Origin: Saitoella complicata NRRL Y-17804
Taxonomy: Eukaryota; Ascomycota; Saitoellomycetes; Saitoellales; Saitoellaceae
Length of the DNA: 64,000 bases
NCBI RefSeq assembly: GCF_001661265.1
Contig: NW_017566999.1
Coordinates: forward strand, 62,001-126,000
Direction of reading: 5' to 3'
Positions 7,649 to 29,998 of this stretch are shown here, in pieces. The notes under the pieces were generated by a model. It ran no database searches, was not told the DNA's origin, and was given only the letters and a program-made list of their open reading frames with translations. Numbering within the stretch: the stretch's first letter is position 1; each line of letters starts with the position of its first letter. Made by a program: the position numbers and the translations under genes.

Positions 7649-10175
7649 CTAGATATCGTCATCGTCCATCATAATCTCATCCACATTCGCCGGCGCATCC
7701 GTCGTCTCAGGCCCCTCATCCTCAGCCTTCCGCTTCAACGTCCCGCCAACGGGCCCAGTAGACGAAGCGACGAATCCCACTGGCGCCTGTGCCTCTCTCT
7801 CCAACGCCGCCATAGCGTCTTCTCTTTCTGTGGGAGAAGTCCCAGTTGCTGCAGTAGCTGCAATATAGTTGATGTCGGTACTACAGATCTGTTAGTAAAC
7901 TCCATGAGCAAGTGGGTGAGTGGCTTACTTGTATTGTGCCTGCACCGTCCTCTTAATCCGCAACATTTCCTTAAACGTATCCTCATTCCCATGCTTGACT
8001 TCGAAATCATGCCACTTCTGCCAAAACGAAGGCTGCGTCCGGGGATCACAGAACTGACTTGCATGCGCCAAAATAACTCTCGCACGGTCAATCTCGCCCA
8101 ATCTCCGTTCCATATCGGCAAAGTCAATTGCCATGTCTCTCGCTTCTGCATCTGGTAGTGCGGCAATGGCACGTTCGTAGATGGGACGGGCGGAGGTGAG
8201 ACCAAATTGCGAGACTGATTTGGCGATGTAGAGGTCGTAGATGTCTTTGCGGTCCTCCTCGGCGACGGCAGAAGCTGCTCTGTCGTAGATCCGCATCACA
8301 TGTCGTGCAAGACCGTGTTGCTCCTCGAGGTCTGCGTACAGGAGGAAGATTGGCTTCGCGAACTTCGGCGGGCAGTTCTCTAATGCTTGCTCGAAGAGAT
8401 CACGAGCACGCTCCAGTTGCGTTCCGCCATATCGTTTGATGAACTTGGAAAGATAGAGGTTCCACAGTTCGAAGGCGATGGGGTATGTGAATACATCCAC
8501 ACCTCTCTCGTAAACCTTGAAGCTCTCCTCAAAGTACTCGTTCTCCTCCAAGAAGTTCGCATAGTTGACAATAATCTGGGCCGTCGCAATGCGCAGTTCC
8601 ATAATGCGATCGTATACAGCCTTTGTGGTCTCCACCGTTCCCAAACCCTCCTCGAGATCCACGTAGAAGGACCACAACTTCATGCATTTGTGCAATCTTG
8701 CCTGTGGTGTCAGAGTGTCGTCGTTGAAGTCAACGGTCGACTTCCGCGGTCCTTCTGTAGCCTTCTTCATTACTGCGAACGCCCTGTCAGCCTCATCCTG
8801 CCTTAGCTCCATCTCTGCCCACTCAATCCAGATATCAGCAAGCTCATTTACAGTTTTGTATGTGACGTTCGTAGACTTCTCCAGAATTTGCCGTGCCTCA
8901 GTCATCCGTCCTCCCTCCTCGTAGAACTTCGCAAAGTTGACCCATATTTGCGCGAGTTTTCCGGTCGCTTTCTTATGGTGGATGGTAGCTAACGCGTCGG
9001 TGTATGTCTTGACCACCATCTCTGGGTTATTAGCCCATAGACTTACGCGCTTCTGCCATTCCTCTGTATTATGAGGGTTTTGTCGCAGCAGAACGTCGTT
9101 CACCAAGAATGGACGACGATCCATGAGCTGCTCGAACCTCGCCATCCGGATGTCGAGATCGAGGTCATCTTCAGGTGTCGTGTTTCCTTCTTCAGCATCT
9201 TGCATCTTCTCCGCGATCAAAGACTCTTCGTATTCTGCGTATGCATCGAACACTTGCGTGAAATCCCTAACAGTGATGACAGTGGTGATGCCCTCCTCAA
9301 AGATATCCCGTGCCCGCTCAAAGTCACCGAGCGAGATGAAATAGGTGGCCAGCGACGTCCACAACTTTCCACGCTGATCAGTAAACTTCTGAATACCCGA
9401 ACGGATGATCTTCTCGACATTGATCTCGGCAGGGATAGACCTTGGGTGATGTACAAGAATATCGCACATTTCGGTCCACAGCTGGAAATGCGACTTACCC
9501 TCCAACGACCTAAACTTGGTGTTATTCAAAACCTTGAGATACTCCTTTGCCGCCAAGCCAAAGTACTCGTTTTCGATGAGCACGTCGATGTAGGACTCCA
9601 CTTGCTCCGGCGCAATCTGCATGTATCGCTTCCATACCCGCATCGCAGTCTCCCCACCCGCACTCTTCGCCCATGGTAGATACATCTTCCAGATCCTCTC
9701 GTGCTGCGTCAACGGCAGTGCCCGCAGAGCCTTGTCGAATGTACGTCGCGTCCGCGTGATGAGAGGCTGTGACATCAAGAACTCCAAATACATTTCCCAA
9801 ATCCTCGGCATCTTGTTCAACAACACCAGCGACTTTTCGAACGCATCATTGACCTTCTCGAATTCATCGGCATATCGCGCAGGATTGATGGCGCTCAGGT
9901 GTCGCACACGTAACTCCAGATATTCCTTCCACAGCTTGTATGAGCCTGGCAGATCGAGACATGCGCGCTCGTAGACGAAGACTCGTTCAGGCAGCGGCGC
10001 TCGTGATTTGTGGTTGATGTATCGCTGCCATGATTTCAGGGAATATGGGTTTCGTAGTAACTCCTGCTCGTATGGTTCGTCGAGAAGGGACTATTCGATT
10101 GTTTGTAAGTGGAATTGCTGCAAGATCAAGCTGACAACTCACGATTAGGTACAGATCAATGTTGGAGGATGTCAT
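7649..10175 (-). CDS. SYF1: SYF1 (XAB2/Cwf3-type) pre-mRNA splicing factor, HAT-repeat protein
   Basis: Syf1 is a scaffold of the Prp19-associated (NTC) complex in the spliceosome. Exons 10175-10143, 10090-7929 and 7880-7649 join to 808 residues, normal for the family. Nearly the whole protein is tandem HAT (half-TPR) repeats with the usual W..Y..fE pattern: for example EQELLRNPYSLKSWQRYI near the N terminus, then RIWEMYLEFL, RIWKMYLPWA and many more. It ends with an acidic tail (NVDEIMMDDDDI). The start MTSSNIDLYLI was preferred because it puts the conserved YEQELLRNPYSLKSW block near residue 20, as in homologues. An in-frame ATG 24 codons further upstream (10247) is possible. Introns are 52 and 48 nt. 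The promoter lies in the 1.6-kb space shared divergently with GCP4. Confidence 0.95.
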
Positions 10176-28802: not shown

Positions 28803-29838
28803 ATGAGCTCTGCTGAGAAAGAGGACTTGCCTGTGGCCGTTGACGAAGCTGAATTCGCGATCGAAGCAGATGTTGAGGCTGCCGAGGATGCCGAAAACGC
28901 GTCTGGTGCTGTAGAAGGTGGTGAGGATGAGTATGAAGTAGAGAAGATCCTTGGACATAGATGGTCGCAAGTAAGTACTCACTTGATGTGCGCAACGCGT
29001 GTGATCGATGCTTATGCGTCGCGTAGCAGAGCGGAGAGTATGAATACGAGATCAAATGGCTGGGCTACGATGCCCCGGAAGACAACACTTGGCAACCAGA
29101 ATCAGAGCTAGAGTGGGTCAGTCACTCGTAGCTTAGGAGATCACAGTGCTAACTGACCTTCAGTTCCTGTCGCGACATGCTGGAGGCCTACTGGCAGGTG
29201 CGTGGAGGGAGGGCAAAGCCGCCCACTTCTGCCAGCTCCCGCAAGCGTGGACGATCACGGTCGACCGCCGTTGAAGAGTCTACTCCTGTTAGCAGCCGTG
29301 CGAAACGGTCGCGGCAAAGTACTGGTACAGCCCAAAGCAAAGCACATCTAGTTGATTCGGATGTTGAGGAGGAAGTCCTGCATCCAAAGCGGAGAGGGAG
29401 GAAGTCCGCTGCAAACGATGTGAACGCTCAAAGCGTCGAGATCGCAAATGGCGGAAAATGGACGCCACCTACACATAAAGATTCCTGGGAGGAGGTGAAT
29501 CTGACAATCGACACCATCGCCCGTGCCGAAGACGGCGAGCTGATGGTTTATGTCGATTGGAACAATGGGTACAAGACCGTCCACCGTACGGACATCATCT
29601 ATGACAAGTGTCCTCGGAAGGTATGTGTACACTCATCACTTATCACACCCGAAATGGAGTCCTGATCGCCTTGCGTGGCAGATGTGTCTCTTTTTCGAGT
29701 CAAATTTGAAGTTCACCCAAGGAAAAAACTGATGGGTTTCTAAAGATGTGTCTATTCTACCAAGGCCTGCTTCGGTTTAGCCACAGGACACGTAGCCAGT
29801 TGCCACCTGAGCTCGCTGCTGCGCTGGAGGAGATGTAA
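28803..29838 (+). CDS. HP1-family chromodomain/chromoshadow protein with two alternative terminal exons
   Basis: HP1 proteins bind histone H3 methylated at lysine 9 and dimerise through the chromoshadow domain to build heterochromatin. Shared exons are 28803-28970, 29027-29112 and 29164-29620 (237 codons, ending in phase 0). The acidic N terminus leads into a chromodomain (YEVEKILGHRW...EYEIKWLGYDAPEDNTWQPESEL, about residues 46-92, with the aromatic cage Y/W/W). A basic serine-rich hinge follows, then the chromoshadow domain (EVNLTIDTIAR...LMVYVDWNNGYKTVHRTDIIYDKCPRK). Two possible last exons both finish this domain. Exon 29682-29732 reads MCLFFESNLKFTQGKN; exon 29746-29838 reads MCLFYQGLLRF and continues with SHRTRSQLPPEL and more. 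Totals are 253 or 267 residues. Intron 1 ends in a TAG-CAG tandem acceptor, so one Gln is optional. Confidence 0.88.
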
Positions 29839-29998
29839 GACGAAGCATGAGAATGTGAATGAACGGCTCCTGGAACCAAGGCCGTACCATTGAGTTGTGT
29901 TAAGTGGGAATTTGGACAATGTCTGTGTTCAGAGACGGAAGGTACCAGTAGTGTAAGAAGCATCTGTTTTCGTATATTCCTCGCACGTTCTTGATCTA

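Follow-up and report, generated by a model that had tools for sequence, protein, structure and literature searches.

Can one gene encode two versions of the heterochromatin protein HP1 by way of two alternative last exons? This question is raised by a 64,000-nucleotide stretch of Saitoella complicata NRRL Y-17804 DNA (contig NW_017566999.1, positions 62,001 to 126,000; hereafter the window), in which an HP1 gene at positions 28803-29838 of the plus strand is followed, behind its last shared exon, by two related candidate endings, here called exons A and B. Our analysis of the window suggests that the last exon was probably duplicated in tandem, that both copies were kept as coding sequence, and that a choice between alternative acceptors would yield two isoforms with different partner choice.

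Two candidate terminal exons behind one splice donor

Domain profiles identified the gene of this member of the Taphrinomycotina as a homologue of HP1/Swi6. Its product carries an N-terminal chromodomain (PF00385, 52 bits, residues 44-96) and a C-terminal chromoshadow domain (PF01393) that runs from residue 199 to near the end of the protein. The shared part of the protein alone scored 28.9 bits against PF01393 (cut-off, 22.4 bits), and the score rose to 43.7 bits with ending A and to 38.1 bits with ending B. The annotated protein P0001 (G7K_1187-t2) is identical to isoform A, letter for letter.

One donor, GTATGT at 29621, is followed by two acceptors, A and B (Table 1). We reproduced the coordinates, phase and translations given in an earlier note on this DNA (donor after 29620, phase 0; exons at 29682-29732 and 29746-29838) and likewise found, as it had claimed, that both exons open with ATGTGTCT and start 64 nucleotides (nt) apart. 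The ending encoded by exon B comprises 30 residues and begins MCLFYQGLLRF. Among the 19 AG sites at 29641-29900, those of A and B were the only ones to open directly on the helix; the AG site at 29721 yields EKTDGFLK, followed by the ending of B. The predicted branch A of a CTGAT motif lies 16 nt before the last G of acceptor A and 13 nt before that of acceptor B, and a CTRAY motif with its A 9 to 20 nt upstream accompanied 252 of 8044 AG sites. One donor and two acceptors, each with a predicted branch site, amount to a putative alternative 3' splice site.

Table 1. Positions in the window of the HP1 exons, of the two forms of intron 3 and of the predicted branch site of acceptor B
Feature	Position	Strand	Basis
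HP1 exon 1, with start codon, acidic N-terminus and first part of chromodomain	28803..28970	+	gene model; translation equals P0001
HP1 exon 2 (chromodomain core)	29027..29112	+	gene model; PF00385 spans residues 44-96
HP1 exon 3 (end of chromodomain, hinge, most of chromoshadow domain), ending in DKCPRK, phase 0	29164..29620	+	gene model
Intron 3, short form, 61 nt, GTATGT...CTGAT at 29662...GCAG, leading to exon 4A	29621..29681	+	sequence signals
Terminal exon 4A (exon A), MCLFFESNLKFTQGKN-stop	29682..29732	+	end of annotated P0001; best AG site by helix profile
Intron 3, long form (125 nt), from the same donor to acceptor AAAG; excises exon 4A	29621..29745	+	sequence signals only
CTGAT, predicted branch site of acceptor B; includes the stop codon TGA of exon 4A (29730-29732)	29729..29733	+	motif placement
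Terminal exon 4B (exon B), MCLFYQGLLRFSHRTRSQLPPELAAALEEM-stop	29746..29838	+	second-best AG site by helix profile; top acceptor pair with A

The earlier note had described a duplicated last exon used in a mutually exclusive way. The duplication stands, the exons being homologous and neighbouring, but neither exon is flanked by introns on both sides and skipped as a unit. The locus is better described, from its splice signals, as duplicated terminal exons at an alternative 3' splice site than as classical mutually exclusive exons, since exclusivity at the protein level would come from the stop codon of A and from the frame and not from exon skipping. Only 13 nt separate the stop codon of exon A from the start of exon B, so no intron fits between them, and a second intron linking A to B was ruled out. 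Read-through of the stop codon of A into B was also ruled out, B lying in another frame (64 nt).

Because the short form of intron 3 is close in size to introns 1 and 2 (56 and 51 nt) and ends in CAG, the near acceptor A (intron of 61 nt) is probably the default. The far acceptor B, with an intron of 125 nt and an AAG end, is probably minor or regulated. In a rough, uncurated scan of the window, A preceded AG in 4 of 31 first-acceptor candidates, a sample too noisy to show how rare AAG is. An RNA structure that would hide acceptor A received no support from folding (z = 0.14; 102 of 200 shuffles folded at least as well).

Retention of intron 3 would yield CPRKVCVHSSLITPEMES-stop with the last helix missing. 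The retained sequence (29621-29665) would give HP1 the ending VCVHSSLITPEMES, without the last chromoshadow helix, and the product could possibly be a non-dimerising form. The TGA that ends it sits within the CTGAT of acceptor A, just as the stop codon of A sits within the CTGAT of acceptor B.

The resemblance of exons A and B exceeds chance expectation

We built a profile of the terminal helix from the 11 residues that follow the CPxx motif in homologues, leaving Saitoella out. It comprised 95 rows, 53 of them distinct; of the 122 non-Saitoella proteins, 27 did not fit the pattern and were left out as truncated models, other proteins or proteins with no recognisable motif, and a slightly different reading of the helix kept 96 of the 122, again with 53 distinct. 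We applied the profile to the 8042 AG sites of the window, counting both strands; 5572 of these are open for 11 codons. Exon A ranked first with 20.0 bits and exon B second with 15.2 bits, the third site reaching 6.5 bits. Homologue helices had a median score of 38.5 and a minimum of 10.0; A and B fall below the median and above the minimum, and both are thus divergent helices.

The two exons were also the most similar acceptor pair. Their BLOSUM62 score of 38 topped all 41,376 pairings of open AG acceptors at a spacing of 40-200 nt, the runner-up scoring 34 and being followed by low-complexity RKRKR stretches at 32 and below. Both exons have Cys at helix position 2, a residue found there in 1 of the 53 distinct homologue helices. 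Since A and B rank first and second for the helix and form the most similar acceptor pair, we conclude from these comparisons that they are homologous. A chance resemblance, with a single real exon, might be suggested by the shortness of the exons, which leaves 11 comparable residues, and by further AG sites in the region that also give short open endings; against the two top ranks, the top-scoring pair and the common, unusual Cys, it is extremely improbable.

The duplicated unit may be an old exon. In one homologue model, P0109, CPQR is followed by 21 foreign residues and then by MLQFYEKHVVF, so that the model reads through an intron in the corresponding position. Because of this read-through, seen in a protein model only, the exon boundary at CPxK/M seems to be old, which suggests that the unit duplicated in S. 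complicata was an ancient last exon.

Both copies appear to have been selected as protein

Exons A and B differ at 16 of 33 nt (5, 4 and 7 by codon position), yet they agree in 6 of their 11 residues, and conservative replacements (F/Y, E/Q, K/R) account for three of the five mismatches. The four Leu/Phe residues common to both are encoded by different codons throughout. We compared this pattern with a null of 16 random changes, run for 200,000 trials each from A, from B and from A with its first 8 nt kept. A BLOSUM score of at least 38 was reached 0, 1 and 3 times per 200,000, respectively, and an identity of at least 6 residues 103, 279 and 1461 times; the null has neither transition bias nor a tree, so that the exact values are rough while the direction is clear. 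Because the protein pattern was kept despite this nucleotide divergence, the comparison clearly argues for protein-level selection on both A and B over a large part of the period that followed the duplication.

This pattern also bears on the idea that both acceptors are used but that B represents low-level splicing noise, or a means of lowering the HP1 dose, with no partner-specific role. Such use would be unremarkable, as alternative 3' splice sites are regular events in fungi: in Schizophyllum commune they account for 21% of primitive events (PMC5034255; partial text), and in fungal pathogens they outnumber alternative 5' sites (PMC6176087; partial text). B is, by prediction, the weaker site. 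The kept protein pattern of B would nevertheless go unexplained, and B extends the domain instead of truncating it. We regard noise or dose lowering as improbable.

The exons differ in the predicted partner groove and in the tail

In the structure model of P0001, strands lie between residues 197 and 226 and helices at 227-233 and 235-245, with block means of the predicted local distance difference test (pLDDT) of 88-94 over residues 191-250. Exon A starts at residue 238, within the last helix. The chromoshadow structures 1e0b (Swi6) and 6fto (Chp2) matched the protein with either ending.

Residues Y372, Y373, H376, I377 and F379 of both protomers line the groove in the crystal structure of Chp2-Mit1 (PMC6499331; partial text). 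These residues, the types of which agree with the printed Chp2 segment, align to exon positions 4, 5, 8, 9 and 11, and all five thus lie inside the last exon. At these positions A has F, F, N, L and F and B has F, Y, L, L and F, three of the five being the same. Among the 53 distinct homologue helices, position 5 is Tyr in 52 and position 8 is His in 50. By this alignment both exons depart from the usual groove, each in a different way. Putting B in place of A would change two groove positions, one central and one outer, and would lengthen the tail from 5 to 19 residues; homologue tails range from 0 to 36 residues, some of them from faulty models.

Exon position 2, which we take to correspond to Swi6 L315 (a numbering deduced from the length of that protein), is Cys in both A and B. 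L315 is required for Swi6 dimerisation (PMC11272775; partial text). Since A and B differ at two groove residues and in the tail and are the same at the residue aligned with L315, an altered partner choice would be likelier than altered dimerisation. The earlier note had assigned to the exons the helix that ends the chromoshadow domain, and with it the surface for dimerisation and partner binding. Its assignment of the helix agrees with the rise in the PF01393 score that each ending brings, and the differences in groove and tail fit its partner surface; the claim does not carry over to a difference in dimerisation at the L315-aligned Cys, which both endings have.

Annotation supporting exon A, and arguments against the use of exon B

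P0001 comes from an assembly other than that of the window, so exon A is not an assembly slip. The source is most likely the S. complicata assembly for which Augustus was run with RNA-seq data (89.3 million read pairs; PMC4447899). The suffix t2 in the name of P0001, G7K_1187-t2, points to two or more annotated transcripts. P0001 is the head of a 4-sequence cluster and, if cluster heads are the longest members, t1 of G7K_1187 is probably not the 267-residue B form. Neither t1 nor any B-ended protein was found among the cluster heads, in the best 120 of 290 matches and in the search with exon B. Exon A is thus well supported, whereas the case for exon B is made from its sequence.

Several points weigh against two functional isoforms. 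The search with exon B, run over cluster heads, matched P0001 and P0002 only and returned no protein with the B ending, and when the A-ended domain was searched against the genome in six frames, exon A was among the matches and exon B was absent. The JGI model from NRRL Y-17804, P0002 (SAICODRAFT_24606), uses neither acceptor. No two-ending orthologue is known to us; that of Pneumocystis wakefieldiae (P0082), seen as protein only, has one canonical ending. Acceptor B is AAAG and comes with a long intron. Codon usage does not separate coding from non-coding sequence for B: the scores of B, of the B tail and of exon A were equalled or exceeded by 24%, 6.4% and 2.1% of wrong-frame stretches, respectively. 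The simulation described above is also compatible with a recent disuse of B. As for partner choice, the specificity of Schizosaccharomyces pombe Swi6 is reported to be tuned in auxiliary surfaces, outside the dimerisation interface (PMC11272775; partial text), and that of Chp2-Mit1 to depend on contacts beyond the groove (PMC6499331; partial text), whereas A and B of S. complicata can differ only in the last helix and the tail.

Some of these points would fit a relic, that is, an exon B that was duplicated, worked for a time and is now merely 3' untranslated sequence of the A transcript. Among the proteins listed from the RNA-guided annotation A alone occurs, the acceptor of B is AAG and its intron long, no B protein was found in the exon B search, and codon usage is uninformative. 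However, the frame of B is still open and in phase, B has kept its acceptor and a branch site at a suitable distance, and the hydrophobic pattern of the helix persists with 16 of 33 nt changed. In a relic, unless its disuse is recent, one or more of these features should have decayed. We consider a relic unlikely, although it is the least implausible of the three alternatives weighed here, and favour two retained coding exons.

P0002 is reproduced exactly by a donor at 29038 together with an acceptor ending at 29659. The internal donor, GTATGA at 29038, removes most of the chromodomain exon 2 (29038-29163). P0002 could be a gene model of poor quality or could represent an additional isoform.

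Genomic setting

The gene was the sole chromoshadow gene found in the 14.1-Mb genome when this was searched with PF01393 and with the A-ended chromoshadow protein (expectation value up to 10), in six frames and exon by exon, a procedure that a divergent copy could escape. The genome search also returned a 528-residue frame on contig C1 (L006, 1501-3087) that combines a chromodomain with a Pre-SET domain, as in Clr4. This frame contains the SET-like motif NHSCDPN and is a candidate histone H3 lysine 9 (H3K9) methyltransferase. Because a chromodomain and Pre-SET frame with the Clr4 layout was found, the H3K9 methylation pathway is probably present in S. complicata.

Chromodomains were also seen in open frames of 913 to 1115 residues (L005, L007, L010 and L011, on contigs C1, C20, C28 and C4), which are possibly retrotransposon or remodeller proteins. 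Elsewhere in the window, at about 9671-9811 on the minus strand, the neighbouring stretches MPRIWEMYLEF and HERIWKMYLPW resemble, and may be, repeats of a HAT-type splicing protein.

Discussion

From the two exons, their similarity, their intact splice signals and the annotated ending A, we infer the use of ending B and its functional consequences. In the model that we favour, the last exon of a single HP1 gene would have been duplicated in tandem and both copies retained as protein-coding. Joining the donor at 29621 to the acceptor at 29681 would produce isoform A, with the short ending, and joining it to the acceptor at 29745 would produce isoform B, in which the last helix is related and the tail is longer. 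As exon A has its own stop codon, B would be 3' untranslated sequence in A transcripts, and A would be intron in B transcripts. Both isoforms would dimerise and would select different partners, a division of labour by splicing that fission yeast reaches with two genes, Swi6 and Chp2. A bolder proposal, which we put forward tentatively and hold to be somewhat doubtful, is that in this basal ascomycete splicing, in place of a second gene, swaps the chromoshadow groove and so creates two functionally different HP1s, and that dimers combining A with B might provide a third groove, which would be asymmetric.

S. pombe Swi6 and Chp2 share their domain layout with S. complicata HP1, but there are two HP1 genes in S. 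pombe and, in S. complicata, one gene with two endings. A related situation exists for SKI7/HBS1: in ascomycetes one donor and two acceptors give two proteins from a single gene, whereas Schizosaccharomyces has two genes, and in S. complicata itself two 3' splice sites of one intron were demonstrated by reverse transcription-PCR and sequencing (PMC3597508; partial text). By analogy, S. complicata HP1 would parallel SKI7/HBS1, with one spliced gene standing against Swi6 and Chp2. The cases differ in that the long SKI7/HBS1 isoform adds an extra segment, whereas homologous duplicated endings replace each other in S. complicata HP1.

Duplicated alternative exons of animals are typically internal and have introns on both sides. 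In Caenorhabditis elegans, HPL-2 gives rise to HP1 isoforms by alternative splicing, and we know of no duplicated exon in that case. Splicing selects between the duplicates in animal tandem-duplicated alternative exons, for example those of U2AF1 (PMC5224494; partial text), as is proposed here. The S. complicata exons are unlike the U2AF1 kind in being terminal, in lying 13 nt apart and in owing their exclusivity to a stop codon. Among fungi, mutually exclusive exons were almost absent (<0.2%) from an RNA-seq survey of human fungal pathogens (PMC6176087; partial text), and in Schizophyllum commune such events were reported in 171 genes, mainly in untranslated regions (PMC5034255; partial text). 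We found no report of two endings of S. complicata HP1 among titles and abstract openings on fungal duplicated or mutually exclusive exons, HP1 isoforms and Saitoella, and no second Saitoella species among the protein matches listed.

Gene duplication is the usual explanation for HP1 specialisation. The S. complicata locus suggests that a 64-nt duplication within one gene could take its place by exchanging residues that line the groove. If B is used, it would be testable, in one cell and behind one promoter, how few groove residues give HP1 a new set of partners, and the gene would be a clear fungal case of a duplicated coding exon retained for alternative splicing.
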